Assembly (NCBI RefSeq): GCF_023806625.1
Contig: NZ_JAMTDX010000041.1
Coordinates: forward strand, 43,323-107,322
Source: Accumulibacter sp.
Lineage (GTDB): Bacteria > Pseudomonadota > Gammaproteobacteria > Burkholderiales > Rhodocyclaceae
Length of the DNA stretch: 64,000 nucleotides
Direction: 5' to 3'
Each line of letters begins with the position of its first letter. Within the stretch, counting starts at the first letter, position 1. The position numbers and the translations under genes were made by a program. Below the pieces are notes generated by a model. That model was not told the origin of the DNA. It was given only the letters and a program-made list of their open reading frames with translations, and did no database searches. Positions 15,409 to 38,740 of the stretch are shown piece after piece.

Positions 15409-16356
15409 TCAGTCCTGAGCCGCGTGCCGTTCCCGCCACTCCCGAACGGCGAGCAACGCGAGCGGCAGTGAGGGCAGGACGTGCACGTTGTCAACCTTGC
15501 TCGCCCAGCGGCTGCCGGCACCGCCGATCCAGAGCTCGACCTGCGGCGGTAGAAGATCCCTCAGGCAGCGGATCAGCGCGGCGATCCTTCGTCCGGGAAA
15601 GGCCAGCGAGAACGAAAGGGCCACGGCGTCGGCATGGTGCGCGAGGGCGGCCATCCGGATGTCGACGAGAGGTGTCTCTGCGCCCAGGGGAACGCACGGG
15701 ACGCCGTCGAGAGTGAGTAGAGCCTCGACCATCAGCAGACCGAGGAGGTGGGGTTCGTCGGGGACCGTCGTCAGCAGCACCCGCGGCCGATTGACCGCGG
15801 CGGGCAGGCTGGCGATCGCCTGCCGCAGCAGCCCTTTCATCTCCTCCGTATAGAGGTGTTCCTCGAAGACCTTGAGCTCCCCGTTTGTCCACGCCTCGCC
15901 GACGGCCTGATTGAGCGGTGCCGCGACCTCGATGACGAAACGCTCGATGCCCAGGCGCATCAGCGATTGCCTGAGAATCTGGCGCAGCCCCGGCAGGTCG
16001 TGGTTCCTGATCTGGCGGATGACCTGTTCAGCAACGTCGTCGCCCTCGTCGATGCCGGCGGGTGTTTCGGGCCGGCGCCCGTCGCTCAGCCTGTCGAGTT
16101 CCTCCTCGCTTGCCGCCAGCAGCTTGCCGGGGCGATGGCCACAGTCGATCAGGCGCTTGAGCAGACGCAGGCGGTCGACCTGTTCTGCCGGGTACCAGCG
16201 TTCGCCCCTGCCGTCGCGTTCGGGTTTCGGGAATCCGTAGCGACGCTCCCAGACGCGCAGCGTGTCTTTTCCGAGACCCGTCTCACGCTCCACTGCGCTG
16301 ATGCTCATGGCCGGCTGAGGACTCAGTTTGTCCTGGACAAAATCGTATATAGACAT
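15409..16356 (-). CDS. MerR-family, B12-binding light-sensing repressor (CarH/LitR type)
   Basis: This 315-residue protein has an N-terminal MerR winged-helix domain (about 17-85, with DTLRVWERRYGFP). A four-helix cobalamin cap domain follows, then a C-terminal Rossmann cobalamin domain. In the cap, Trp156 is followed nine residues later by Glu166-His167, the W-x9-E-H signature of adenosylcobalamin photoreceptors of the CarH family. In the Rossmann domain EPHLLG supplies the lower-ligand His203 of the H-x2-G motif. In known members dark tetramers bind operators and light releases them. The ATG at 16356 is chosen over the in-frame TTG at 16362 because GGAGGG lies 6 bases upstream. It is divergent from a stress operon and flanked by two palindromes. 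Confidence 0.92.
   Translation of the reverse strand: MSIYDFVQDKLSPQPAMSISAVERETGLGKDTLRVWERRYGFPKPERDGRGERWYPAEQVDRLRLLKRLIDCGHRPGKLLAASEEELDRLSDGRRPETPAGIDEGDDVAEQVIRQIRNHDLPGLRQILRQSLMRLGIERFVIEVAAPLNQAVGEAWTNGELKVFEEHLYTEEMKGLLRQAIASLPAAVNRPRVLLTTVPDEPHLLGLLMVEALLTLDGVPCVPLGAETPLVDIRMAALAHHADAVALSFSLAFPGRRIAALIRCLRDLLPPQVELWIGGAGSRWASKVDNVHVLPSLPLALLAVREWRERHAAQD
16328..16340. promoter_or_regulatory. palindromic operator, copy 1 (TTGTCCTGGACAA)
   Basis: This is a perfect 13-base palindrome about an odd centre (TTGTCC-T-GGACAA), extended by one matching pair on each side. It lies just inside the 5' end of the regulator gene, about 60 bases upstream of the inferred start of the divergent operon. 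It is the same sequence as copy 2 at 16403 apart from the central base. Confidence 0.7.
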
Positions 16357-16385
16357 TGACAACCCTCCAAAGTCAGGCCTATACT
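16356..16385 (+). promoter_or_regulatory. sigma-70 promoter of the gpx-folE2 operon
   Basis: A consensus TTGACA (16356-16361) is followed after 18 bases by TATACT (16380-16385). Transcription would start near 16392, so the palindrome at 16403-16415 lies just downstream of the start, a position suited to repression. The -10 overlaps that of the divergent promoter. Confidence 0.65.
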
Positions 16386-16409
16386 AGCCAAGAATCTGGT
16401 AATTGTCCA
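16381..16409 (-). promoter_or_regulatory. promoter of the B12/MerR regulator gene
   Basis: On the minus strand TGGACA (16404-16409) is followed after 17 bases by TAGTAT (16381-16386). The -35 is part of the palindrome at 16403-16415, so binding there should block the regulator's own transcription. Confidence 0.6.
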
Positions 16410-16415
16410 GGACAA
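16403..16415. promoter_or_regulatory. palindromic operator, copy 2 (TTGTCCAGGACAA)
   Basis: This is a perfect palindrome TTGTCC-A-GGACAA whose centre is 75 bases from that of copy 1. It covers the -35 of the leftward promoter and the start region of the rightward one. It is the best candidate binding site of the CarH/LitR-type regulator. Confidence 0.75.
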
Positions 16416-16427
16416 CTTGGGGTCCAA

Positions 16428-17207
16428 ATGAAGCAGTCGAGCTGGTCGAAAGCTTTCCGGAGGAGGTGCCTGACCTCTTGTGCCAGGGTGGCGGCACTGG
16501 CCGCTGGCCGACGGCACCTTGCGTTGTCACCCGATTCTCGCAGAGCAGGCGCCCGGGCTCTTCCTGCTCCTGACGAAGTCGTCCTCGCTGAGCGCGGCTG
16601 GACGAAGCGGCCGGTGTCAGGCGGGAGCCCGGGGGCGGTCGACGGGTTGCGCTGGGTGCCAGCGCTGCCAGCCGCACTCGTGTCGGCCGGACTGCTCGTG
16701 TCCGCACCCTCGCTGGCCAGCGAGCCCTGCCCGAAGCTCCTCGACTACCGCTTTTCGTCCCTGATCGGAAAGCAGACCGAGTCGCTCTGCCAATGGCGCG
16801 GCAAGGTACTCCTGGTGGTCAATACGGCGAGCTACTGTGGCAACACCTCGCAGTACGACGGCCTCGAAAAGCTCTACGAGCGTCTCCGCGAGAGGGGACT
16901 GGTCGTCGTCGGTTTCCCGTCCAACGACTTCGGCGATCAGGAGCCGGGGACCAATCAGGAGATCGCCGAGTTCTGTCGCCTCACCTACGGGGTGAAGTTT
17001 CCGATGTTCGCCAAGACGTCGGTCGTCGGGCAGGCGGCCAATCCACTTTACGTCGAACTGGCCCGGGTGACCGGCCAGACGCCGCAGTGGAACTTTCACA
17101 AATATCTGATCGATCGCAGCGGCCAGCGTGTGCTCAGTTTCAGCAGCCGCGTCAAGCCCGACGACAAGTCGCTGCTCGGTCACATCGACGAGTTCCTCGG
17201 CCGGTAG
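16428..17207 (+). CDS. glutathione peroxidase-like peroxiredoxin, exported
   Basis: It reduces peroxides with thiol donors. The thioredoxin-fold domain (about the last 160 residues) has the peroxidatic Cys in ASYCGNT, the NDFGDQEPG loop with the catalytic Gln, and the WNFHKYLIDRSG motif. The mature domain is preceded by a signal-like segment (ALVSAGLLVSAPSLAS). The first ATG after the promoter (16428, after GGGG) gives 259 residues, with about 80 unusual residues before the signal. A start at TTG 16647 or GTG 16656 would give a normal exported protein, so the true start is uncertain. It is the first gene of the light/B12-regulated operon. Confidence 0.82.
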   Translation: MKQSSWSKAFRRRCLTSCARVAALAAGRRHLALSPDSRRAGARALPAPDEVVLAERGWTKRPVSGGSPGAVDGLRWVPALPAALVSAGLLVSAPSLASEPCPKLLDYRFSSLIGKQTESLCQWRGKVLLVVNTASYCGNTSQYDGLEKLYERLRERGLVVVGFPSNDFGDQEPGTNQEIAEFCRLTYGVKFPMFAKTSVVGQAANPLYVELARVTGQTPQWNFHKYLIDRSGQRVLSFSSRVKPDDKSLLGHIDEFLGR

Positions 17208-17261
17208 CCGGAGTTCCCGCCGTTTGCCTCGTGACCACTTGAACATTCTGGAGATTGCTCA

Positions 17262-18074
17262 ATGAACGCACCCGATGTCTTTTTCCTCCCGGACATCCAG
17301 GCAAGCGCCGACTCCCGGCAACTGGCCATTCATCAGGTCGGCGTCCGGGGCCTGCGCTACCCGCTTGCCGTGCTCGATGCCTCAGGGCGTGTCCAGCACA
17401 CGGTCGCGTGCCTGTCGATGTCCGTCGCTCTGCCACCCGAGGTGAAGGGCACGCACATGTCGCGATTCGTCGAACTCATCGAAGGACAGCGGGCTCCACT
17501 GGACCTTGCGCGCCTGAGGCGCCTGTTCGACGACATGCTGCTGCGGCTCGATGCCGAGGCTGGGGAGATCGAACTGGTCTTCCCCTATTTCATCAGGAAG
17601 ACCGCTCCGGTTTCGGGCGTCGAGAGCCTGCTCGATTACGACGTCCGTCTGCGGGTAGGCAGAGCAGAAGGACAGGCCGTGATCCAGACTCTCGAAGTCG
17701 TTGCTCCGGTGACCAGCCTTTGTCCCTGTTCGAAGGAGATCAGCGAGTACGGTGCGCACAATCAGCGCTCGCAGATCACGATCTCGGCGGAGTTGCGCGG
17801 CGAGATGAGTCCCGAAGAACTCGTCTGTCTGGCCGAAGAGGAGGCCTCGTGCGAGCTGTTCGGTTTGCTCAAGCGTCCCGACGAGAAATGGGTTACCGAG
17901 CGCGCCTACGACAACCCCAAGTTCGTCGAGGACCTCGTTCGCGACATCGCCCTGCGCCTGCTCGGCGAGCCGAGGATCGCGCGCTGGAAGGTCAGTTCGG
18001 AGAACTTCGAGTCGATTCACAACCACTCGGCCTACGCCGAGATCACCGGCGAGAATCGCCTCGGAGACGAGTGA
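17262..18074 (+). CDS. folE2: GTP cyclohydrolase I type 2 (FolE2)
   Basis: It converts GTP to dihydroneopterin triphosphate, the first step of folate synthesis, without the zinc dependence of FolE. The 270-residue length and the SLCPCSKEISEYGAHNQRS active-site segment are those of the FolE2 family. It overlaps the next gene by one base (TGATG) and follows gpx by 54 bases. In a photooxidative-stress operon its role may be a metal-sparing supply of folate, for example for photolyase antenna cofactor; that is inference, and no photolyase gene is present in this window. Confidence 0.94.
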   Translation: MNAPDVFFLPDIQASADSRQLAIHQVGVRGLRYPLAVLDASGRVQHTVACLSMSVALPPEVKGTHMSRFVELIEGQRAPLDLARLRRLFDDMLLRLDAEAGEIELVFPYFIRKTAPVSGVESLLDYDVRLRVGRAEGQAVIQTLEVVAPVTSLCPCSKEISEYGAHNQRSQITISAELRGEMSPEELVCLAEEEASCELFGLLKRPDEKWVTERAYDNPKFVEDLVRDIALRLLGEPRIARWKVSSENFESIHNHSAYAEITGENRLGDE

Positions 18075-19414
18075 TGAGCCGTGCCCCTGGACAACGCATC
18101 GCCGTAATCGGTGCGGGAATCTCCGGCCTGGCCAGCGCGTGGCTACTGTCGCGCCGGCATTTGGTCACCGTCTATGAGGCGGCCGCCCATGCCGGAGGGC
18201 ACACGAACACCGTAGACGTCGAAGTCGACGGGATCCGTCATCCCGTGGACACCGGCTTCCTGGTCTACAACACGAAGACCTATCCCCAGCTCACCGCGCT
18301 GTTTGCGCACCTCGGTGTCGCCAGCAGTGAAACCGAGATGTCTTTCTCGGTGAGCATCGAGGACGCCGGAGTCGAGTGGGCGGGCAGCAATCTGGCGACG
18401 ATCTTCGGGCAGAAGCGCAATCTCGTGCGCCGGGACTTTTGGCGGATGCTCGCCGACATCCTGCGTTTCAACCGCGAAGCCGGCGCGTGGCTCGACCGGA
18501 ACCCGGATTCGTCGCTGACCCTGCGTGCGTTTCTCGATCGCGGAGGGTATTCGCGGTCCTTCGTCGAGTGGTACCTGTTGCCGATGGCCGCGGCGATCTG
18601 GTCGTGCCCGGCGGGTCAGATGCTCGACTACCCTCTGGCGAGTTTCGTGCGCTTCTGTCGTAACCACGGCCTGCTGCAGATTTTCGATCGGCCGCTCTGG
18701 CGAACGGTCGTCGGTGGCGGGCGGGAGTACGTGCGGCGTCTGACCACGCATCTCGACGACCTTCGCCTGGCGACTCCGGTTCGCCGTGTGCAGCGCTCGG
18801 CGGATGGTTTGAGCGTGATCACCGATGGCGCAGTGGAGACCTACGACCAGGTGGTTCTCGCCTGTCACAGCGACCAGTCGCTGGTCATCCTCGGGGACTC
18901 GGCGACTGCCGATGAGCGGCGTCTGCTCTCGGCGATCCGCTATGCGCCGAATCGCGCGGTTCTGCATACCGACCCGGCGCTGCTGCCGCGCTCGCCAGCG
19001 CTGTGGTCCGCGTGGAACTACCTGTCGGCGGCCGGCGAGCTCGACCAGCGCCCGGTCAGCGTCTCGTACCTGATCAACCGGTTGCAGGCGCTGCCCTTCC
19101 GGACACCGGTGATCGTCTCGCTGAATCCGCAGCGCGAGCCCGATCAGGAGCGGATCATCGCGGGCTTCGAGTACGCGCATCCCGTATTCGATGGTCCGGC
19201 GATCGCCGCACAGCAGGAACTGGCGGGAATCTCGGGTGTCGCGGGTGTGTGGTTCTGCGGTGCGTGGAACGGCTATGGTTTTCACGAGGACGGTTTGCGC
19301 TCGGCGCTGCGCGTGGCCAACGCGCTCGGCTGCCACGCGCCGTGGCAGTTGGGCGTTCCCGACAGCGACGGCGGGCGGGTTGCGCTGCACCGAGTCGGGG
19401 CAAGCGCGAGGTGA
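18074..19414 (+). CDS. FAD-dependent amine-oxidase-like protein (candidate fatty-acid desaturase, UfaD-like)
   Basis: This 446-residue flavoprotein begins with a dinucleotide-binding fold (AVIGAGISGLASAWLL) and the amine-oxidase GGHTNTV motif. A C-terminal FAD-contacting segment (GVWFCGAWNGYGFHEDGLRSAL) follows. Homologues always travel with DUF1365 and cyclopropane-synthase-like genes. In Rhodobacter sphaeroides, related genes in the singlet-oxygen regulon act on methylated fatty acyl chains in furan fatty acid synthesis. The specific function here is inferred from that context. Start and stop overlap both neighbours. Confidence 0.85.
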   Translation: MSRAPGQRIAVIGAGISGLASAWLLSRRHLVTVYEAAAHAGGHTNTVDVEVDGIRHPVDTGFLVYNTKTYPQLTALFAHLGVASSETEMSFSVSIEDAGVEWAGSNLATIFGQKRNLVRRDFWRMLADILRFNREAGAWLDRNPDSSLTLRAFLDRGGYSRSFVEWYLLPMAAAIWSCPAGQMLDYPLASFVRFCRNHGLLQIFDRPLWRTVVGGGREYVRRLTTHLDDLRLATPVRRVQRSADGLSVITDGAVETYDQVVLACHSDQSLVILGDSATADERRLLSAIRYAPNRAVLHTDPALLPRSPALWSAWNYLSAAGELDQRPVSVSYLINRLQALPFRTPVIVSLNPQREPDQERIIAGFEYAHPVFDGPAIAAQQELAGISGVAGVWFCGAWNGYGFHEDGLRSALRVANALGCHAPWQLGVPDSDGGRVALHRVGASAR

Positions 19415-20193
19415 GCGTGTCCACGGCGCGTCTGTTCTTCGGGCAGGTCATGCATCGGCGCCTGCGGCCGGTAGGCAATCGCTTCGTCTACCCGGTGTAC
19501 TTCTGCCTTCTGCCGTTGACCACCATCGAGCAGGTTCCGTGCGCGCTGTTCTCGGTCAACCGCTGGAACCTGTTCAGCTTCCACTACCGCGATCACGGCG
19601 CGCGCGATGGCTCTCATCCGCTGGCCTGGATTCGCGACCTGCTCTCCCGCGAGGGGCTCGCCGCCGACGGCGAAATCCTCCTCCAGTGTTTCCCGAGGGT
19701 GCTCGGCTTCGTCTTCAATCCAGTCAGCCTGTGGTTCTGCCACGACCGCGCCGGAGCACTGCGGGCCGTCGTCGCCGAAGTCAACAACACCTTTGGAGAG
19801 CGTCACAATTACCTGCTTGCCCATGACGACGGGCGGCCGATCCGCGACGGCGAGGTGCTCGAGCGGCGGAAGGTCTTCCACGTCTCGCCGTTCATGGCCG
19901 TTTCGGGGTCTTATCGCTTCCGTTTCCACTGGCGCGGCGAGAGCCACGGCCGGCCCGAGTGGCGCCTGGTGCGGATCGACCACGCCGATCCGGCCGGAGA
20001 CCTGCTGCACGCGTCGCTCTCCGGCCATGCCGAAGCGCTGGCCAGCCGGCCGTTGCTCAAGGCCTTCTGCCGCTATCCGCTGATGACCATCGGTGTCGTC
20101 GTGCGCATCCACTGGCAGGCGCTTCGCCTGTGGGTCAGGGGCGCGCCGTTCTTTTCCAAACCACCCGCTCCTGCCGAGGAGACCACACGATGA
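19411..20193 (+). CDS. DUF1365 family protein
   Basis: This 260-residue member of the DUF1365 family shows the conserved N-terminal HRRLRPVGNRFVYPVYF, the CFPRVLGFVFNPVSLWFC centre and the EVNNTFGERHNYLL motif. Biochemical function is unknown. The family is tightly linked with the preceding FAD protein and the following methyltransferase, which suggests a step in acyl-chain modification. The start is the GTG at 19411 overlapping the previous stop (GTGA); a second GTG at 19417 is possible. It overlaps the next start as ATGA. Confidence 0.85.
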   Translation: MSVSTARLFFGQVMHRRLRPVGNRFVYPVYFCLLPLTTIEQVPCALFSVNRWNLFSFHYRDHGARDGSHPLAWIRDLLSREGLAADGEILLQCFPRVLGFVFNPVSLWFCHDRAGALRAVVAEVNNTFGERHNYLLAHDDGRPIRDGEVLERRKVFHVSPFMAVSGSYRFRFHWRGESHGRPEWRLVRIDHADPAGDLLHASLSGHAEALASRPLLKAFCRYPLMTIGVVVRIHWQALRLWVRGAPFFSKPPAPAEETTR

Positions 20194-21422
20194 ATGTCAG
20201 TGAGAGCACACTCCGTCTGCCGGTCGTCGAGCAGCACCGGCGCATGCCGCGCGGCGCCCGGGCGCTTCTTTCCCTGTTCGAAGGCATCGACCGCGGCGGC
20301 CTAAACGTCCGCCTGCCCGACGGTGAGGCCCTGCATTTCGGGTCCTCGGGTGAGCACGAAGCCACATTCGAAGTCCGTGAATGGCCGGTCTTCGACTGCA
20401 TCCTCGAGCGCGGCGATGTCGGCCTGGCTGAAACGTGGATCGACGGTCAGTGGCAGACAGCCGACCTCGCCAGCCTGCTGACGCTGTTCACCAACAACCG
20501 TCCGGCGATCGCCAAGGCGCTCTACGGCCAGTGGTGGCCTCTGCTCCGCGCCCGCCTGCGTCATCTGCTGAACGCCAACACCCGCTCCGGAGCGAGACGG
20601 AACATCATCGCCCACTACGATCTGGGGAACGACTTCTACCGCTTGTGGCTCGATCCGACGATGAGCTACTCGAGCGCCCTGTTTTCGGTCGCTGGACCGC
20701 GTTCGCTCGCCTCGGCGCAACTGGCCAAATACCGCCGCGTGCTGCAGCGTCTCGCTGCCCGGCCGGGCCAGCGGGTGCTCGAGATCGGCTGCGGCTGGGG
20801 AGGTTTTGCCGAGACGGCCGCGCGCGAGGCAGGCGTCGAGGTCGTCGGCCTCACCCTGTCACCCGCCCAGTTGGCGTACGCCCGCGAGCGCATGGTCGTC
20901 GCCGGTGTGGACCGGCAGGTGCGCATCGAACTGTGCGACTACCGCGAACTGGGCGCCGAAAAGTTCGACCATCTGGTGTCGATCGAGATGATCGAGGCGG
21001 TCGGCGAGCGCTGGTGGCCGACCTATTTCGCGACCATCGCGCGCGCGCTCGCGCCCACGGGACGGGCGGTCGTGCAGGGCATCACGATTCGGGACGACCT
21101 GTTCCCGCGCTACCGTCGCGGCACGGACTTCATTCAGCAGTACATCTTCCCCGGCGGCATGCTGCCGAGCCGGGCGGTCTTCTCGCGCCTCGCCGATGCA
21201 GCGGGTCTGGCGATCGGCGACGAGTTCGCTTTCGGCCGTGACTACGCGCGCACGTTGCAGTACTGGTCGACAAGCTTCGACGAGAACTGGCCGGCGATCG
21301 CCGCGCTGGGCTTCGACGAGCGCTTTCGGCGACTGTGGCTCTTCTATCTGGCCTACTGCCAGGCAGGATTCGACAGCGGCAGCACCGACGTCTGGCAGTT
21401 CGAACTGGCGCACGCGCGATGA
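20190..21422 (+). CDS. cfa: cyclopropane-fatty-acyl-phospholipid synthase family methyltransferase
   Basis: This SAM-dependent enzyme transfers a methylene or methyl group to unsaturated acyl chains of membrane phospholipids. The 410-residue protein has the family's N-terminal lipid-binding part, then NIIAHYDLGNDFYRLWLDPTMSYSSALF, the SAM loop VLEIGCGWGGFAETAA, and a C-terminal FGRDYARTLQYW segment. It is slightly longer than E. coli Cfa (382). Linkage to the FAD and DUF1365 genes means it could be a UfaM-type methyltransferase rather than a true cyclopropane synthase. Confidence 0.9.
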   Translation: MNVSESTLRLPVVEQHRRMPRGARALLSLFEGIDRGGLNVRLPDGEALHFGSSGEHEATFEVREWPVFDCILERGDVGLAETWIDGQWQTADLASLLTLFTNNRPAIAKALYGQWWPLLRARLRHLLNANTRSGARRNIIAHYDLGNDFYRLWLDPTMSYSSALFSVAGPRSLASAQLAKYRRVLQRLAARPGQRVLEIGCGWGGFAETAAREAGVEVVGLTLSPAQLAYARERMVVAGVDRQVRIELCDYRELGAEKFDHLVSIEMIEAVGERWWPTYFATIARALAPTGRAVVQGITIRDDLFPRYRRGTDFIQQYIFPGGMLPSRAVFSRLADAAGLAIGDEFAFGRDYARTLQYWSTSFDENWPAIAALGFDERFRRLWLFYLAYCQAGFDSGSTDVWQFELAHAR

Positions 21423-21946
21423 AAAGGGCCTGGCTGGCGCTCTGTCTTACGGTCTGGTCGGCTGTCGTTCAGGCCGTCCCCGACGCGCTGCGCGACGCCG
21501 GAGCGAGCTGGCGACAGTGGGGAAGCGGCGAGATGCGCTGGCTCGGAATCCCGCTCTATCGGGCGACGCTCTGGGTGGCCGGCGCCGCCCGCTCGGGCGA
21601 TCCAGGCGATTCGCCACATGCGGTGCAACTCGACTACCGTCGCGAAATCACCCGCTCACGGCTCGTCGAGGTGAGCGTCGATGAGATGCGCCGTCTCGGT
21701 GCCAGCGAGGAGCAACTCGAGCGATGGAAGGGGGTGCTCGGGCGAGTCTTTCCCGACGTGCGCGACGGCGATACGCTGTTCGGTGTCCATTACCCGGGTT
21801 GGGGAGCGACTTTCTACGATCGCCAACGCTTGCTCGGCGAAGTGCCCGACGCCGATTTCGCGCGCTACTTCTTTTCCATCTGGCTCGACCCGCGAACGCG
21901 TAACCCGGGTCTGCGTGCAGCGCTGCTCGAGAGGCCGCCGGGATGA
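21419..21946 (+). CDS. chalcone isomerase-like domain protein, exported
   Basis: This 175-residue protein has a short signal peptide (AWLALCLTVWSAVVQA). The mature part resembles the bacterial chalcone-isomerase-like family, a fold that binds fatty acids; examples are the RWLGIPLYRATLWV strand and a C-terminal FFSIWLDP segment. Enzymatic activity is not implied. It overlaps both neighbours by four bases (ATGA) and is an integral part of the operon. Confidence 0.72.
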   Translation: MKRAWLALCLTVWSAVVQAVPDALRDAGASWRQWGSGEMRWLGIPLYRATLWVAGAARSGDPGDSPHAVQLDYRREITRSRLVEVSVDEMRRLGASEEQLERWKGVLGRVFPDVRDGDTLFGVHYPGWGATFYDRQRLLGEVPDADFARYFFSIWLDPRTRNPGLRAALLERPPG

Positions 21947-23229
21947 GTGGCGCCGTTTCCGCGGGGCTGTCGCTGACCCGTGGGCAGATGCTCGCCTACG
22001 GCGCCCTCGGTCTGCCGCTGGCGATGGCTGCGCTCCCCGTCTATGTTCACCTGCCGCGTCTCTATGCCGAGGCCACCGGCCTGAGCCTCGGTCTGCTCGG
22101 CGTCCTGCTGCTTTTCGCCAGGCTTTTCGACGCCGGCATCGATCCGCTGCTCGGCGGCTGGGTCGATCGGGCAGGAACTCGTCGTCGCCTGGTCGTCGTC
22201 GCCTTGCCGTTTCTCGCGCTGGGCATTCCGGCTCTGTTCCACCCACCGCAGTCGCTGGTGCCACTCTGGTTGTTGTTCTGGCTGACCTGCACCTACTTCG
22301 GCTTTTCTCTGGCGACCGTCGCCCATCAGGCGTGGGGGGCCGAACTCGGCTGCTCACCCGGCGAACGCACGCGACTGACCGCCAGCCGGGAAGGCTTCGG
22401 GCTGATCGGCGTGATTGCCGCCGCCGCGGTGCCAGCCTGGCTGGCGAGCGACTTCGTCGCCGGGATCTCCGGTCTCGCGCAACTGTTTCCCGGGCTGCTC
22501 CTCGTCTTCGCCGCGTGGACCTGGTTTGGGTCCCCGCCGACGCCCGGGCGGCTTCCGCCGCGCCGTGCGCTGCTCGGCGAACTCGGCCACGCTCTGCGCC
22601 ACGGCCGCTTCCGTCTGCTGCTCGCGGCTTTCGTGCTCAACGGCCTGGCCGCCGCACTGCCGGCGACTCTGGTCCTTTTCTTCGTGGCCGACGTGCTCCA
22701 CGCGGAAGAGTGGAGCGGCGTCTTTCTCGCCGTATATTTTGCGAGCGGAGTCTTCTTCCTGCCGCTCTGGGTCCGTCTCGCCGGGCGCTGCGGAAGGGTC
22801 CGCAGCTGGGTCGTCTCGATGCTCGTCGCCATCGCTGCGTTCGCCTGGGCCTGGCGTCTCGGCAGCGGGGACGTCTGGCCGTTCCTCATCGTCTGCCTGC
22901 TCTCCGGGGCGGCTCTCGGCGCGGATCTGACGTTGCCGCCGGCGCTGCTCGCCGACCTTGCCGAGGATTCACCGGCCGCCGACCCCGCGGGCGAGCGACA
23001 GGCGCAGGCCGGCGCCTACTTCGGCTGGTGGAATCTCGTCGCCAAGCTCAACCTGGCGCTCGCCGCCGGGCTCGCTTTGCCTCTCGTCGAAGCCCTCGGC
23101 TATCGTCCGGGGGCCGCCGAAGGGGCCGAACCCCTGGCCATCGTCTATGGTCTGCTGCCTTTGCTGTTCAAGCTCGCGGCCGCCGCGCTGGCTTGGCGGT
23201 GGCGTGACCTTCTGGAGCCATCCCGATGA
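21943..23229 (+). CDS. MFS transporter (GPH-like)
   Basis: This 428-residue membrane protein has about 12 hydrophobic segments. It resembles the glycoside-pentoside-hexuronide branch, with the DAGIDPLLGGWVDRAGTRRR loop between helices 2 and 3. Homologues are regular members of the FAD/DUF1365/cfa gene cluster. The transported molecule is unknown; movement of a modified lipid or pigment is only a guess. It overlaps both neighbours as ATGA. Confidence 0.82.
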   Translation: MSGAVSAGLSLTRGQMLAYGALGLPLAMAALPVYVHLPRLYAEATGLSLGLLGVLLLFARLFDAGIDPLLGGWVDRAGTRRRLVVVALPFLALGIPALFHPPQSLVPLWLLFWLTCTYFGFSLATVAHQAWGAELGCSPGERTRLTASREGFGLIGVIAAAAVPAWLASDFVAGISGLAQLFPGLLLVFAAWTWFGSPPTPGRLPPRRALLGELGHALRHGRFRLLLAAFVLNGLAAALPATLVLFFVADVLHAEEWSGVFLAVYFASGVFFLPLWVRLAGRCGRVRSWVVSMLVAIAAFAWAWRLGSGDVWPFLIVCLLSGAALGADLTLPPALLADLAEDSPAADPAGERQAQAGAYFGWWNLVAKLNLALAAGLALPLVEALGYRPGAAEGAEPLAIVYGLLPLLFKLAAAALAWRWRDLLEPSR

Positions 23230-23768
23230 AATCGTTGCATTTCCTCGCCCTGGGTTGTGGTCTTCTCGGGCTCACCGCGTGCACCGGTGTCTCGCCCGGG
23301 ATCTACCGTGCCGAGCAACCGGTGCTCGACCTGGCCCGATATTTCGACGGCACGGTGGACGGCTGGGGAATGTTCCAGGACCGCTCGGGAGCGGTCGTCA
23401 AGCGCTTCCAGGTGCGCATCGACGCGCGTTGGGAAACACGCGATGGCGCCGAGGTCGGGACTCTCGACGAGAGCTTCTCGTGGTCGGACGGAACGACGTC
23501 GCGCCGCGTCTGGACGATCACGCGCGTCGGCCCGTCGAGCTACGTCGGTCGCGCCGACGACGTCGTCGGCGAAGCGAGCGGTGAGGCCGCGGGCAACGCC
23601 CTGCGCTGGCGCTACGTCCTGGCGCTGCCTGTCGACGGTCGCACGTGGCACGTCGACTTCGACGACTGGATGTTCCTGATCGACGAGCGGGTCATGCTCA
23701 ACCGGTCGGTGATGAGCAAGTTCGGCTTCCGGCTCGGCGAAGTGACGCTGAGCTTCAGCAGGCGCTGA
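23226..23768 (+). CDS. DUF3833 family lipoprotein
   Basis: This 180-residue protein has a lipoprotein signal peptide with lipobox LTAC (Cys about residue 19). A domain of the DUF3833 type follows (PVLDLARYFDGTVDGWGMFQDR near the start, FDDWMFLIDERVMLNRS near the end). The family has a lipocalin-like feel but no proven function. It occurs with SDR and NTF2-like genes in photooxidative-stress clusters. It overlaps the MFS stop and ends 4 bases before the next start. Confidence 0.82.
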   Translation: MKSLHFLALGCGLLGLTACTGVSPGIYRAEQPVLDLARYFDGTVDGWGMFQDRSGAVVKRFQVRIDARWETRDGAEVGTLDESFSWSDGTTSRRVWTITRVGPSSYVGRADDVVGEASGEAAGNALRWRYVLALPVDGRTWHVDFDDWMFLIDERVMLNRSVMSKFGFRLGEVTLSFSRR

Positions 23769-23772
23769 ATCG

Positions 23773-24537
23773 GTGAACCCGCGGATCACCGACTGGCGGG
23801 GCCTGCGTGTCTGGGTGCTCGGCGCTTCGAGCGGCATTGGCGCCGCGCTGGCCAGACTGCTGCTGCAAAGCGGCGCCAGGGTTGCCCTGTCGGCGCGCAG
23901 CGCCCCGCGCCTCGCCGAGGTCGCCGAAGACCGTCGATGCGCGCTCGTGCTGCCCTGCGATGCGCTCAGCGAGGCCAGTGTGCGTGCCGCCTGCGACCAG
24001 CTGGTGGCCTCGTGGGACGGGATCGACGTGGCCATTTACGTTGCCGGAGACTATCAGCCGATGCGCGCCTGGCAGATCGATCCTGCCAGGGCCCGGCAGA
24101 TGATCGGCGTCAATCTCGGCGGGGCGATCGCTTTCGCGGCCTGTGTCGTGCCGCAACTCCTCCGCCAGGGCCACGGACAGATCGCTTTCGTGGCCAGCGT
24201 CGCAGGCTACCGTGGCTTGCCCAGGTCGCTCGTCTACGGACCGACCAAGGCGGCGCTGATCAACTTCGCCGAATCGCTGTATCTCGATCTCCGCCCGCGC
24301 GGCATAGGTGTCCGGCTGATCAACCCCGGCTTCGTCGAGACGCCGATGACCGCTGGCAACGATTTCACCATGCCGGCGTTGCTCAGTGCCGAGCAGGCAG
24401 CCCGTGAGACGGTGGGCGGATTCGCCACTTCTTCGTTCGAGATCCATTATCCGAAACGCTTCACGCGGCTGCTCAAGCTGCTCGCCGTCCTGCCCTACCG
24501 GATCTACTTCGCGCTTGTGCAGCGCGTCGCTGGCTAG
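23773..24537 (+). CDS. SDR family oxidoreductase
   Basis: This is a short-chain dehydrogenase/reductase of 254 residues. It has the cofactor loop GASSGIGAA, a catalytic Ser in ASVAGYRGL, and the YGPTKAAL motif (Tyr and Lys of the active site). The Arg after the second strand (SARSAPR) suggests NADPH preference. The start is a GTG at 23773. The substrate is unknown; position in the operon suggests a lipid-derived aldehyde or ketone. Confidence 0.86.
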   Translation: MNPRITDWRGLRVWVLGASSGIGAALARLLLQSGARVALSARSAPRLAEVAEDRRCALVLPCDALSEASVRAACDQLVASWDGIDVAIYVAGDYQPMRAWQIDPARARQMIGVNLGGAIAFAACVVPQLLRQGHGQIAFVASVAGYRGLPRSLVYGPTKAALINFAESLYLDLRPRGIGVRLINPGFVETPMTAGNDFTMPALLSAEQAARETVGGFATSSFEIHYPKRFTRLLKLLAVLPYRIYFALVQRVAG

Positions 24538-24548
24538 CACTGGCCGGC

Positions 24549-24998
24549 ATGGACAACCGGCGGGCCGTCGACGCGCTGGTCGACTTCTACGAGAATCTTC
24601 GGCCGGAGACGGTGGCCGGCATCGACGATCACTACGCCGTCGACGCGGTCTTCAAGGATCCGTTCAATGAAGTCTGCGGAAGGCCGGCGATCCGGCGGGT
24701 GTTCGCCCATCTGTTCACCCAGGTTGGCGAACCGCGCTTCGTAGTCGTCGACCGGGTCGTCGACGAGCGTGGCGCGCTGCTGATCTGGGAAATGTACTAC
24801 CGGTCGAGCACGAAGACGCCGAGGAACCCGACCGAGGTGATTCGCGGAGCCTCGCATCTGCGCTTCGACGCCGAAGGCCGGGTGACCTGGCACCGCGATT
24901 ACTGGGATGCCGCCGAAGAACTCTACGCGCGGCTGCCGGTGATCGGCTGGCTGATGCGTGCCCTGCGCCGTGCGCTTGCCGCGCCGGAAAGGGCCTGA
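24549..24998 (+). CDS. NTF2-like (SnoaL-type) fold protein
   Basis: This 149-residue cone-shaped-fold protein begins with a typical helix (AVDALVDFYENL). It has the FKDPFNEVCGRPAIRRVF region and ends in HRDYWDAAEELYARLP. Members of this fold bind or isomerise small hydrophobic ligands, or have no catalytic role. It is the last gene of the ten-gene operon, 11 bases after the SDR gene. Confidence 0.8.
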   Translation: MDNRRAVDALVDFYENLRPETVAGIDDHYAVDAVFKDPFNEVCGRPAIRRVFAHLFTQVGEPRFVVVDRVVDERGALLIWEMYYRSSTKTPRNPTEVIRGASHLRFDAEGRVTWHRDYWDAAEELYARLPVIGWLMRALRRALAAPERA

Positions 24999-25147
24999 CC
25001 AGGGCGGCGGCGCATTCCGGGCGGTGGAAGTGGCCTGCGAAGCGGCAGCCAAAGCCGATAATCCGCCCCGCGCTAGACGGACCTTCTGCATTGCCGGCTG
25101 CGCCTGCGGCCGTGATCGATCTCACGAAGCGCCCCCTGCGCCGCCGG

Positions 25148-25153
25148 TATAAT
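25148..25153 (+). promoter_or_regulatory. -10 box of the ACP-hydrolase operon
   Basis: A perfect TATAAT lies about 60 bases upstream of the acyl carrier protein start; the -35 region is weak. The intergenic stretch 24999-25213 shows no other signal. Confidence 0.45.
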
Positions 25154-25213
25154 CAAATCCGCCGATGCCCGCGGGCCGATTTCCCGGTGGGCAAGCCATT
25201 GACAGGAGCGAAC

Positions 25214-25471
25214 GTGGGCATGGAGATCCGGAACGAAGTAGTGGCCATCCTGGACGAGGTGCTGAGCCTCAAGGGGCGCGCGGCCGACTTGGCGCTGGAC
25301 GCGCCGCTGCTCGGCGCGCTGCCCGAACTGGACTCGATGGCCGTCGTGTCGCTGATCACGACCCTCGAGGAGCGCTTCGCTTTCACCGTCGACGACGACG
25401 AAATCGATGGTTCGGTGTTCGCGTCGCTGGCCACGCTGATCGACTTCGTGCGTCGCAAACTGGCTGCCTGA
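25214..25471 (+). CDS. acyl carrier protein (exosortase-A-associated type)
   Basis: This 85-residue four-helix acyl carrier protein has the phosphopantetheine serine in ELDSMAVV. The GTG at 25214 is chosen because AGGAG stands 5 bases upstream; the ATG at 25220 is 11 bases away. It is followed within 12 bases by the two exosortase-A-associated hydrolases, which identifies it as the carrier protein of that cluster type rather than the fatty-acid synthase ACP. Confidence 0.88.
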   Translation: MGMEIRNEVVAILDEVLSLKGRAADLALDAPLLGALPELDSMAVVSLITTLEERFAFTVDDDEIDGSVFASLATLIDFVRRKLAA

Positions 25472-25483
25472 CAGGGACTCGCC

Positions 25484-26302
25484 GTGGCGCTGGAGGCGTT
25501 CTTCCTGCCGGCCTGTCCGGGCCGGCGTTTCGCGCTCCTGCATCTGCCGGACGGACCGGCAGTCCCCATTGGCGCCGTCGTTTTCGTGCCCCCCTTCGCC
25601 GAGGAACTCAACAAGTCGCGACGGATGGTTGCGCTGCAGTCGCGCGCTCTCGCAGCCGCCGGCTACGCCGTGCTGCAGGTCGACCCGCTCGGTTGTGGCG
25701 ACAGTTCGGGCGACTTCGCCGAGGCGACCTGGGAATCGTGGCTGGCTGACGTGGACCTGGCGTGTGCCTGGCTCGAGCGCCGGATAACCGATGCTCCGCT
25801 ATGGCTGTGGGGTCTGCGCACGGGCTGCCTGCTGGCCAACGATGCCGCCAACCGCATGTCCCGACCGGTGAACCTGCTCTTCTGGCAGCCGGTGCTCTCG
25901 GGCAAGCAGTTCCTCCAGCAGTTCCTGCGCCTGAAGCTTGCCGCAGAACTGCTTGGCGGCGAGAGCAAGGGGGTCATGGAGCGCGCCCGTGCACATTTGC
26001 GCGACGGCCAGGCAGTCGAGGTGGCGGGTTACCTCCTCTCCTCGGTTCTCGCCGCGGGTCTCGAGAAAGCCGATCTCCTGCTGCCGCATCGCTCGGGCCG
26101 CGTCGAGTGGATCGAGATTTCCGGAAAGGCCGAGGCAACGCTTTCCCCGGCCGCCCAAGCCCGGCTCGCGCAATGGCACGCGGCTGGCCAGATCACCCGC
26201 AGCCACCTGGTCGGTGGACCACAGTTCTGGCAGACCAGCGAAATCGCCGAATGCCCTGAACTGATCGAGACGACGCTCGGCGCTCTCGCCGGAGTCGCGT
26301 GA
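25484..26302 (+). CDS. hydrolase 2, exosortase A system-associated
   Basis: This 272-residue alpha/beta hydrolase-like protein resembles the TIGR03101 type. It has the early VVFVPPFAEELNKSRRM segment and the DPLGCGDSSGDF region. The usual nucleophile elbow is replaced by WGLRTGC, so catalysis may be absent or unusual. The family is found only in genomes with exosortase A and exopolysaccharide clusters. The start is GTG 25484. It overlaps hydrolase 1. The exosortase itself is not in this window. Confidence 0.85.
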   Translation: MALEAFFLPACPGRRFALLHLPDGPAVPIGAVVFVPPFAEELNKSRRMVALQSRALAAAGYAVLQVDPLGCGDSSGDFAEATWESWLADVDLACAWLERRITDAPLWLWGLRTGCLLANDAANRMSRPVNLLFWQPVLSGKQFLQQFLRLKLAAELLGGESKGVMERARAHLRDGQAVEVAGYLLSSVLAAGLEKADLLLPHRSGRVEWIEISGKAEATLSPAAQARLAQWHAAGQITRSHLVGGPQFWQTSEIAECPELIETTLGALAGVA

Positions 26303-27288
26303 TGGACGTCATCGAGGAGGCGCTGGTCTTTTGGTGCGCCGGCGAGCAGTTGCCGGGGATCATCGCCTGGCCACAAGGACTCCATCAGGCGACGCGAGGG
26401 ACCGGCGCTGCTGACGCCGATGCGGGCTTTCGTCCGTGCCTGCGCGGCGACGACGGATCGCTGTTGCCCGCTGATGCCGAGGCTCTCGGGAACGGGCGAG
26501 CGCCCGGCCGGAGCGGCGTCCTGGTCGTCGTCGGCGGTCCGCAGTACCGCGTCGGCAGCCATCGCCAGTTTCTGCTCCTCTCGCGGCGTCTCGCCTCCGC
26601 CGGCTACGCGGTGATGCGCTTCGATTACCGCGGGATGGGCGACGCGGGCGGCGCGATGCGCAGCTTCGAAGAGGTCTCGGACGACATTGCCGCGGCGATC
26701 GACGCCTTCCAGCGAGCGTGCCCGGCCGTGCGACGGATCGTTCTCTGGGGACTGTGCGATGCGGCCTCGGCGGCCCTGCTCTATGTCGAACGGACGAACG
26801 ATCCGCGCGTGGCCGGACTGGTGCTCCTCAACCCGTGGGTCCGCTCGGAGGCCAGTCTGGCGCAGACCCAGGTCAAGCACTACTACGGTCAACGCCTGCT
26901 GCAGCGCGCATTCTGGGCCAAGCTGTTCGCCGCGCGCGTCGATCTACGCCGGTCGTTGCGCGAGCTGTGGCAAACGCTGGGCGTCGCGCTGCGCAGACGA
27001 CCGGCCAGCCAGCCGGATTCCCGATCGTTCCAGGATCGCATGGCCGACGGCTGGCGCCGATTTCGCGGTGGTCTGCTGCTGATCCTCAGCGGACACGACT
27101 ACACGGCCAGAGAGTTCATCGAGTACACGACGACGAGCGCCAGCTGGGCAGGCCTCCTTGGCGAGGCGCGGCTGACCCGGATCGACCTCGCCGAGGCTGA
27201 TCACACATTCTCTTCGGCAGACCAGCGCCAGGCTGTCGAGGAGGCCACCCTGGAATGGCTCACGCAGCAAGAGGAATCGCTTTCATGA
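26302..27288 (+). CDS. hydrolase 1, exosortase A system-associated
   Basis: This 328-residue alpha/beta hydrolase resembles the TIGR03100 type, with GVLVVVGGPQYRVGSHRQF near residue 75 and MRFDYRGMGDAGG. As in hydrolase 2, the nucleophile position reads WGLCDAAS, with Cys in place of Ser. The ATG at 26302 overlaps the previous stop; a GTG directly upstream would add one residue. A possible role is acyl or thioester handling with the adjacent carrier protein. A region of about 45 residues near the N-terminus is low in similarity. Confidence 0.85.
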   Translation: MDVIEEALVFWCAGEQLPGIIAWPQGLHQATRGTGAADADAGFRPCLRGDDGSLLPADAEALGNGRAPGRSGVLVVVGGPQYRVGSHRQFLLLSRRLASAGYAVMRFDYRGMGDAGGAMRSFEEVSDDIAAAIDAFQRACPAVRRIVLWGLCDAASAALLYVERTNDPRVAGLVLLNPWVRSEASLAQTQVKHYYGQRLLQRAFWAKLFAARVDLRRSLRELWQTLGVALRRRPASQPDSRSFQDRMADGWRRFRGGLLLILSGHDYTAREFIEYTTTSASWAGLLGEARLTRIDLAEADHTFSSADQRQAVEEATLEWLTQQEESLS

Positions 27289-28475
27289 ATACGGGCAGCG
27301 CGGGCACCTATGGTTCGAGACGTTCCCGCCGGGGCAAGGCCCGTCCCGGGTCATCGCGCTGGTTCAGGCGTTATCGGTGGCTGGTCATCGGCGGCTGGCT
27401 GGTCGGATTGATTGCCGTCGGTTGGCTGCTGTTCTTCCGCTCGGAGAGGGTGGGCACGGTACCCGCTCGGCCGGCGGCCGAGGCCGATGCGCCGAAGACC
27501 AGCGACGCCGCGGCCATGCCGCCCGTCAGGTTGCCTGCCGACGATGCCGTTCACGATCGGCTCACCGAGTGGTGGTATTACAGTGGACACCTGCAGAGCG
27601 AAGCCGGCGAGCGCTACTCGTTCCATGTCGCGGCCTTCCTGCGCCAAGGAACGCTGACGCACACCGTCTTCCACGGATCGCTTCTCGACCACCAGACCGG
27701 AAAGTTGTACACCGAACAGGCGCGAACCGCGGGGAGTCCTTCCGAAGGTCTGCGCGACGGCTACGCCCTGAACTTCGGCGCCTGGCAGATGCGCGGTGAG
27801 GGCGCGCGGCACGCGGCACGAATGGAGGGCAAGGAGTTCTCGCTGAACATCGATCTCGATGATCGGTCGCCACCCGTGCTGCACCAGGCGCCGGCTACGC
27901 CGGTCGTTGGCCTGCTCGATTTCAGGGCTGCCGGGAAGAGCTACTATACGTCCCGCCCGCGGATGTCGGCGGCGGGCACGCTGACCATCGCCGGGGTCAG
28001 CAAGGCGGTCCGCGGCGACGTCTGGTTCGACCACCAGTGGGGTGACTTCGAGGCTGCGCAGTTGCGCTGGAACTGGTTCGCCCTGCAGCTTGCCGACGGC
28101 GCCGACGTGATGATCTTCGAACTGTCCGATCGTCAGGGAACCCCGGTGCTGCGAATGGGCACCTATGCGCGGGAGGGAAGGGTCTACGCGCTCGGTGCAG
28201 CGGACATCGAAGCCCGTTCGCAGGCGACCTGGAAGAGTTCGGCTTCGGGGATCGTCTATCCGGTCAGCTGGACGATCAGCATCCCTTCGCGGGAGCTCAA
28301 GCTGAAGATCGAACCGGTACTCCGGGCGAGCGAGTTCGACGCCCGGACGACGACGCTGAACGTCTACTGGGAAGGCGCCGTCAAGGTCAGTGGCTCGCAG
28401 AGCGGTGTCGGCTTCATGGAACTCAGCGGCTACGATCCGCCGCGCGATTCGGCGGCGGCGGGCCGCAACTCCTGA
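27285..28475 (+). CDS. membrane-anchored lipocalin-like protein (CrtC N-terminal/AttH family)
   Basis: This 396-residue protein has an Arg-rich N-terminus and one transmembrane helix (about 28-48), so the bulk is periplasmic. The domain shows the family hallmarks HDRLTEWWYYSGHL, SFHVAAFLR, DVWFDHQWGDF and WNWFALQLADGADVMIFEL of the CrtC/AttH lipocalin-like fold, seen in carotenoid 1,2-hydratases and secreted or exported relatives. No carotenoid genes are nearby, so hydratase activity is not assumed. The start overlaps the previous stop (ATGA), placing it in the ACP-hydrolase operon. Confidence 0.83.
   Translation: MNTGSAGTYGSRRSRRGKARPGSSRWFRRYRWLVIGGWLVGLIAVGWLLFFRSERVGTVPARPAAEADAPKTSDAAAMPPVRLPADDAVHDRLTEWWYYSGHLQSEAGERYSFHVAAFLRQGTLTHTVFHGSLLDHQTGKLYTEQARTAGSPSEGLRDGYALNFGAWQMRGEGARHAARMEGKEFSLNIDLDDRSPPVLHQAPATPVVGLLDFRAAGKSYYTSRPRMSAAGTLTIAGVSKAVRGDVWFDHQWGDFEAAQLRWNWFALQLADGADVMIFELSDRQGTPVLRMGTYAREGRVYALGAADIEARSQATWKSSASGIVYPVSWTISIPSRELKLKIEPVLRASEFDARTTTLNVYWEGAVKVSGSQSGVGFMELSGYDPPRDSAAAGRNS

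Positions 28476-36313: not shown

Positions 36314-38740
<2,427 letters not shown>

Follow-up and report, generated by a model that had tools for sequence, protein, structure and literature searches.

A putative LitR/CarH-like-controlled furan-fatty-acid operon in Accumulibacter

A 64,000-nucleotide stretch of the 4.09-Mb draft genome of Accumulibacter sp. (part of contig C41, NZ_JAMTDX010000041.1; hereafter the window) carries ten consecutive genes divergent from a gene for a LitR/CarH-like regulator. We read these genes as a furan-fatty-acid operon under LitR/CarH-like control, a reading to which we assign a probability of roughly 0.7. It is built on the gene set and its operon form, the conserved geometry of sites and promoters, the B12 motifs of the regulator and an active-site difference in the methylase UfaM, all observed in this analysis.

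In the dark, LitR carrying adenosyl-B12 would bind two opposed sites, one beside each -35 box of a bidirectional sigma-70 promoter, shutting off both its own gene and the operon. Light would break the Co-C bond, LitR would be released and the operon transcribed. UfaM would then methylate cis-vaccenoyl chains of phospholipids, UfaD would add a double bond and UfaO would close the furan using O2. The resulting lipid would be consumed by singlet oxygen or radicals, with an exported Gpx clearing peroxides, and the lipoprotein barrel, chalcone-like and NTF2-like proteins would probably bind lipid or breakdown products. The enzyme steps and the CarH photochemistry are taken by analogy from work on homologues; for this organism we infer DNA binding, the light response, the product and every accessory role. 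If this scheme is right, many betaproteobacteria, including the phosphorus-removing sludge organism Accumulibacter, make furan fatty acids on the command of light, and the paired sites conserved around the bidirectional promoter would make a compact, testable light switch.

Gene layout and the UfaD-, UfaO- and UfaM-like enzymes

The genes of the locus, in window coordinates, are as follows.

15409 to 16308, minus strand: litR, MerR-type helix-turn-helix (HTH) plus B12-binding domains, a LitR/CarH-like repressor by its families; divergent from the operon
16428 to 17207, plus strand: gpx, PF00255 (GSHPx), Cys type; start uncertain
17262 to 18074, plus strand: folE2, GTP cyclohydrolase IB, operon paralogue; PF02649 (GCHY-1) and NF010200, both over cut-off
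18071 to 19414, plus strand: UfaD-like gene of the flavin adenine dinucleotide (FAD) amine-oxidase family; PF01593 (Amino_oxidase), 74.4 bits, and NAD_binding_8
19411 to 20193, plus strand: UfaO-like DUF1365 gene; PF07103, 266.2 bits against a cut-off of 25
20190 to 21422, plus strand: UfaM-like S-adenosylmethionine methylase of the CMAS family; PF02353
21419 to 21946, plus strand: chalcone-isomerase-like gene; PF16036 (Chalcone_3); signal-peptide-like N-terminus judged by eye
21943 to 23229, plus strand: MFS_2 transporter (GPH-like); PF13347 over cut-off, TIGR00792 (gph) below cut-off
23226 to 23768, plus strand: DUF3833 putative lipoprotein, predicted beta-barrel; PF12915
23773 to 24537, plus strand: short-chain dehydrogenase (SDR); PF00106 (adh_short)
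24549 to 24998, plus strand: NTF2/SnoaL-like gene, end of the conserved set; PF12680 (SnoaL_2)

The first-pass annotation had listed ten genes here with these families, and all ten are in place, every one over its Pfam cut-off. The sequence also bears out its description of an operon: 4-bp overlaps occur at six of the nine junctions, the remaining intervals being +54 (Gpx-FolE2), +4 (DUF3833-SDR) and +11 (SDR-NTF2), and the next downstream gene follows after a gap of +92. The ten genes look like a single operon.

A search of 150 genomes found DUF1365 in 77, including that of the window. We compared 157 loci, namely the window, 76 stretches from the other 76 DUF1365 genomes and 80 named loci that are the best 80 of at least 583, mostly from Betaproteobacteria and leaning to close relatives. 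Duplicates are included, and genomes present twice include those of L064/L119 and L115/L129, whose FolE2 rows are identical. By tblastn with the window proteins as queries, UfaM is present in 154 and UfaD in 152 of these UfaO loci, followed by the MFS_2 transporter (121), the chalcone-like protein (119), SDR (115), DUF3833 (114) and the NTF2-like protein (109). LitR lies upstream on the opposite strand in 91 loci; Gpx is found in 64 and FolE2 in 50. The operon set recurs and is common across Betaproteobacteria, with gpx and folE2 as optional front genes. Culturable relatives with this layout include Aromatoleum diolicum (L132) and Methyloversatilis discipulorum (L123). The 4-bp overlap is commonest at UfaO-UfaM (121/154), MFS2-DUF3833 (75/104) and UfaD-UfaO (93/152), is seen at about half of the UfaM-chalcone (54/114), chalcone-MFS2 (57/100) and SDR-NTF2 (57/106) junctions, and is rare at FolE2-UfaD (5/50).

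Two genomes also hold a decayed second copy. One (L218, G019:C85:31000-41000) retains FolE2, UfaD and SDR with partial LitR, Gpx and DUF3833 matches, and no UfaO, UfaM, chalcone-like, transporter or NTF2 match in the fetched stretch; the other (L217, G005:C52:14000-24000) retains Gpx, FolE2 and 30 residues of UfaD.

By family and order, the FAD, DUF1365 and Cfa-like proteins appear to correspond to UfaD, UfaO and UfaM of the furan-fatty-acid pathway, the UfaD gene directly adjoining that of UfaO with a 4-bp overlap. That pathway has been worked out in two alphaproteobacteria, and the functions of UfaM, UfaD and UfaO have been described (PMC7380195).

Compared with four solved CMAS proteins, UfaM carries Gln296 in place of the His of the LLHTI-like motif and Ala270 in place of the His of the FEHVG-like motif. 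In an alignment of 154 UfaM rows, the window's included, every readable row keeps Gln296 (152 of 152) and Ala270 (153 of 153). The His of the LLHTI-like motif is one that we take to be a bicarbonate ligand of E. coli Cfa, and the lack of it is compatible with a methylase that transfers the methyl group but closes no ring. The pair Gln296/Ala270 may serve as a mark of UfaM.

For UfaD, LkcE entries are the only solved relatives at E<=1e-5. A sequence search at E<=1 returned no solved relative of UfaO. Its predicted structure is mainly beta and barrel-like with C-terminal helices (predicted local distance difference test score, 95), and its fold matches stand at background level only. In 64 aligned rows, H15, D61 and H157 of UfaO are invariant, and E123 and H132 are kept in at least 90%. 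Families and a conserved active-site pattern favor the UfaD-UfaO-UfaM set that the first-pass annotation had proposed. The trio could instead yield a methylated, conjugated or otherwise altered acyl chain that is not a furan, with LitR controlling general membrane-lipid remodelling. We consider this rather unlikely: the conservation of the five UfaO residues speaks against it, as does the way the three genes stay together across the compared loci.

A candidate light switch between litR and gpx

The interval between the divergent genes holds two candidate operators and two overlapping candidate promoters. The first-pass annotation had noted neither this arrangement nor the wide spread of the operon.

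16328 to 16340, no strand assigned: putative operator site 1, TTGTCCTGGACAA; one of two exact copies in the genome, conserved in relatives
16403 to 16415, no strand assigned: putative operator site 2, TTGTCCAGGACAA; the other exact copy, conserved in relatives
16356 to 16385, plus strand: candidate operon promoter, TTGACA-N18-TATACT; 11 of 12 consensus matches; 51 of the 61 site pairs, counting that of the window, have an equivalent
16381 to 16409, minus strand: candidate litR promoter, TGGACA-N17-TAGTAT; 9 of 12 consensus matches, its -35 inside site 2 and its -10 overlapping the operon -10

The palindrome TTGTCCNGGACAA (TTGTCCwGGACAA) matches exactly at only two places in the 4.09-Mb genome, 75 bp apart and both in the litR-gpx intergenic region; from base composition we would expect about 0.1-0.2 copies in the genome. 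After removal of duplicate intergenics, and of loci whose first gene could not be read, 87 LitR and 49 non-LitR intergenics remained. With up to two mismatches, the site is found in 79 of the 87 LitR intergenics and occurs twice in 66 of them, against 0 and 0 for a reversed control pattern. The search for pairs at 50-95 bp gave 61, spaced by 62-64 bp in 34 cases, by 72-75 bp in 26 and by 52 bp in one; the central base is T in site 1 of 43 and A in site 2 of 59. The two spacing classes differ by ~11 bp, the length of one CarH-operator repeat (PMC9304148). At spacings of 60-76 bp, the range used for the repeat and -10 analyses (27 long pairs, as opposed to 26 in the pair search), 23 of 34 short pairs have a TnnACA unit at +11/12, and the 27 long ones have it at +11 in 13 cases and at +22 in 20. 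For the window, the unit at +22 coincides with the -35 box TTGACA. The CarH operators of myxobacteria, Thermus and Bacillus are made of 11-bp TnnACA repeats, one of which carries the -35 box (PMC9304148). The window differs in its palindromes, which face forward on one side of a bidirectional promoter and are reversed on the opposite side, and in its lipid-gene targets. Binding of LitR to the paired sites is putative.

A scan covering sigma-70-type promoters returned the litR and operon promoters as the only two promoter-like matches in 13.3 kb (mean of 0.8 in shuffles). Across the 61 pairs, a forward -10 box (at least 4 of 6 matches) is present in 46, and a reverse -10 box lies 16-18 bp from the -35 of site 2 in 48, where shuffles predict 5.3. 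Both boxes pass in 38 pairs, the window's among them, and all 38 share the same overlap offset. This layout fits a bidirectional promoter with a shared -10. The predicted start sites are ~18 bp apart by our own count, and since the operator sites sit at both -35 boxes, a single complex bound there could silence litR and the operon at the same time. In E. coli, too, bidirectional promoters have divergent genes sharing a -10, with a start-site distance of ~18 bp as the commonest (PMC12825309); in the window and its relatives the design is conserved together with a presumed repressor site at each -35.

The regulator itself is probably LitR/CarH-like, as distinct from CarH proper. We took ATG 16308 as the litR start from the starts of relatives near the same place; the open reading frame (ORF) is open to 16362. 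Both the HTH domain (PF13411) and the first B12 domain (PF02607) exceed their Pfam cut-offs. W-x9-EH (WTNGELKVFEEH) and ExHxxG (EPHLLG) are present, as they are in all 53 LitR ORFs read, and we assume that W-x9-EH and E/DxHxxG are the B12 ligand motifs of CarH. Together with the conserved paired sites on the promoter, these motifs argue for the light/B12 control that the first-pass annotation had proposed. A second LitR in the genome was considered and rejected, as only one of three PF02607 matches is a LitR; the others are a 1303-residue open frame, MetH-like by its size, and a corrinoid-protein-like ORF beside a methyltransferase-like ORF (these two named by eye).

LitR may sense B12 status or an oxidant in place of light, or may act through a partner photoreceptor in the manner of a class II LitR with a LOV protein. 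PmlR2, which acts through PmSB-LOV (PMC9758184), provides a precedent. Consistent with this is the score of the window LitR against the CarH equivalog NF052513, 134.8 bits where the cut-off is 400, and so is the presence of a TetR-type gene in the regulator's place in 14 loci, from which it follows that light need not be the operon's only input. On the other hand, a protein of the adenosylcobalamin transferase family is present in the genome, and we judge this explanation unlikely. An ordinary stress cluster that is no light regulon at all appears very improbable to us: adjacent, opposite-strand LitR in only 91 of 157 loci counts in its favor, yet conservation of the site pair, the two spacing classes and the shared -10 greatly exceeds what the controls show.

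Several points weigh against control by LitR and a furan product. Genome-wide, sites with up to two mismatches number 133 against 127 for the control, a chance level, so only strong copies are meaningful. Eight of the 87 LitR intergenics have no site. Among the 49 loci without adjacent LitR a site occurs in 8 and two sites in 7 (control 3 and 0), and many of the site-bearing loci are from Accumulibacter or from cut contigs. Among the short pairs 11 of 34, and among the long ones 14 of 27, have no TnnACA unit at +11/12, and the middle 11-bp repeat of the window is degenerate. The two -10 boxes are not independent, because once a forward TAnnnT box is in place the reverse box needs mainly one further A. 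The second B12 domain of LitR (PF02310) scores 25.1 bits, below its cut-off of 32.1, and the low CarH equivalog score belongs here as well. Finally, the Ufa orthology is a presumption drawn from protein family, gene order and residue signature.

Two further observations concern the regulator's place. Four loci of the window's own genus (L047, L050, L052 and L062) have paired sites and no LitR match in the fetched stretch; their LitR may lie elsewhere in the genome. The search for additional gene clusters covered the stretch that starts 5.5 kb ahead of UfaO and ends 8.5 kb behind it, with Pfam run on a single representative per cluster. The representative of one cluster is of TetR type, and its genes lie divergent ~2 kb before UfaO, at the expected place of LitR, in L097, L101, L110, L116, L117, L144, L149, L152, L154, L157, L170, L176, L177 and L179. 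The operon in these 14 loci seems to have switched regulator.

FolE2, photolyase and accessory proteins

The reductant of UfaO is stated to be unknown in PMC7380195, and a link to FolE2 would turn it into a concrete question. The operon FolE2 scores 287 bits and the other FolE2 copy in the genome 344 bits. A tree of 69 FolE2 rows holds 18 copies from elsewhere in 18 genomes, two relic copies and 49 operon copies. In it, 16 of the 18 non-operon copies fall in one supported clade and 44 of the 49 operon copies, with both relics, in another; five operon rows and two outside rows are placed elsewhere. GTP cyclohydrolase genes keep returning to such regulons, as with the light-induced folE of P. 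mendocina and folE2 in the RpoE regulon of Rhodobacter. A pterin role for FolE2 is plausible, if speculative.

FolE2 probably does no more than refill folate or the photolyase antenna under light stress, with no tie to the lipid enzymes. A photolyase is present in 76 of 77 genomes, and R. capsulatus co-induces folE2 and phrB (PMC7074977). No FolE2 was found within 9 kb at 107 of the 157 loci; among the 115 whose flanks are long, the figure is 78. We rejected on these counts the idea that FolE2 is obligatory for UfaO, and with most loci lacking it a pterin need is a lead only. Two features point the other way. The operon FolE2 is a distinct paralogue directly before ufaD, despite the other FolE2 and a gene of the type I FolE family (PF01227) in the same genome, and in an order-level relative (G095) a PF01227 gene lies on the same strand just downstream of UfaM.

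A more ambitious, joint reading may be drawn, which we regard as a long shot. UfaO would be a furan synthase with a beta-barrel fold, and a reduced pterin derived from what the operon FolE2 makes would serve as its reductant, the B12 light switch inducing oxygenase and cofactor supply together; in genomes without ChrR the furan lipid would be a direct shield and not a messenger to ChrR breakdown. An alternative cofactor of UfaO is heme, as in nitrobindin-like barrels.

A search of the window's genome for the ChrR-type cupin PF12973 gave 0 matches at E<=0.001, while a match is found in 53 of the 77 DUF1365 genomes with this model, which is broader than ChrR. Since no cupin of this type was detected, a protective role of the furan lipid, if the scheme holds, could be examined here separately from the signalling through ChrR that is proposed for Rhodobacter.

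The first-pass annotation had also stressed the lack of a photolyase. This is true of the operon and not of the genome, whose only PF00875 (photolyase) match lies at C11:75008-75481, outside the operon. Nor do the data support the view that the absence is special, a photolyase in the locus being the exception anyway: a PHR-type gene occurs in 7 of 157 loci, and a DPRP-type cluster, so named from one representative, is found in 15 loci within the scanned stretch, 14 of them upstream on the minus-strand side or on that strand. Shared control of the genome's own photolyase was considered and rejected, since the PF00875 ORF stands between CheA-like and pyrB-like ORFs (by eye) and no site with 0 or 1 mismatch is listed on its contig. 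Six places with a 1-mismatch site exist elsewhere in the genome.

Among the accessory proteins, Gpx has a doubtful annotated start (16428), with ~75 residues before a signal-peptide-like stretch. Many relatives begin at such a stretch, and the long N-termini within the genus differ from one another; the true start is probably nearer the stretch, at about codon 75. C137, Q171, W221 and N222, presumably the catalytic tetrad, are kept across aligned relatives. DUF3833 is predicted, from its model and fold matches, to be a beta-barrel, and its Cys19, at a lipobox recognized by eye, is invariant in 49 of 49 rows. That the transporter, lipoprotein and SDR help to build the lipid, as had been suggested, finds no support in their Rhodobacter counterparts, which are singly dispensable: single deletions of RSP1087, 1088 and 1089 in R. 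sphaeroides left the fatty acid profile unchanged (PMC7380195, section 4). The suggested part of these proteins in placing the lipid is likewise unsupported.

Known systems and neighbouring genes

The proposed kinship with singlet-oxygen regulons is upheld by R. sphaeroides, whose rpoE targets include folE2, RSP_1087-1091 and cfaS (PMC7074977, Table 1). Its RSP1091-1087 genes and RSP2144 comprise the same kinds of enzyme in the order UfaD-UfaO-transporter-small protein-SDR, with folE2 in the same RpoE/ChrR regulon (PMC7380195, PMC7074977). There UfaM is encoded elsewhere (RSP2144), the operon holds a GPH symporter, a hypothetical protein and an SDR, and control is by RpoE/ChrR (PMC7380195, PMC7074977), whereas the window has UfaM and the chalcone-like gene inside the operon, Gpx and FolE2 in the lead, LitR with a sigma-70 promoter as the likely control, and no ChrR-type cupin found in the genome.

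The pmlR1 operon of P. mendocina has a LitR-family repressor and touching, light-inducible genes with an SDR, an FAD oxidoreductase and ufaM, and its sigma-70 promoter carries one site on the -35 and one between start site and ATG (PMC9758184). Light induces ufaM 25-33 fold and folE 1.6-3.3 fold (PMC9758184). It differs in that its LitR is of class II and has a LOV partner (no search of the window's genome was aimed at LOV genes), in having phrB in the operon and folE at another locus, and in its sites, TGTACA-N12-TGTACA (PMC9758184). Halomonas sp. YLGW01, outside Rhodobacter, has consecutive ufaM, ufaD and ufaO, and its UfaM yields the 11-methyl intermediate in E. coli (PMC12089945). In the RpoE2 regulon of Shewanella oneidensis, a single stress response likewise governs a periplasmic Gpx and a phrB-cfa operon, but as separate units, under an extracytoplasmic function sigma factor and with a photolyase included (PMC4336711).

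The enzyme content and the light logic are hence of a known kind, and adjoining ufaM, ufaD and ufaO are published for Halomonas (PMC12089945). In the literature surveyed, none joins LitR with UfaD/UfaO in betaproteobacteria and the TTGTCCwGGACAA site pair is given nowhere, with the limit for both that work on P. putida/Burkholderia LitR and the 2014 furan work may describe parts. As far as this literature shows, three features appear to be new: one operon that includes Gpx and FolE2 and adjoins a LitR of the B12 type, the conserved design of sites on a bidirectional promoter, and the UfaM residue difference.

Near the operon in other genomes, a cluster from 28 loci recurs, mostly upstream and on the minus strand; its representative (L123:5764-6738, minus strand) is weakly like a soluble fatty acid desaturase (PF03405, 29 bits). 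In the window, the genes after the operon (25091-28475) encode an ACP-like protein, two alpha/beta hydrolases and a CrtC/lipocalin-type protein, and look like part of another cluster. Farther on (36314-38740, minus strand), residues 711-796 of a proton-pumping pyrophosphatase ORF form an OmpA-like domain at its C-terminus, which strikes us as an unusual combination.

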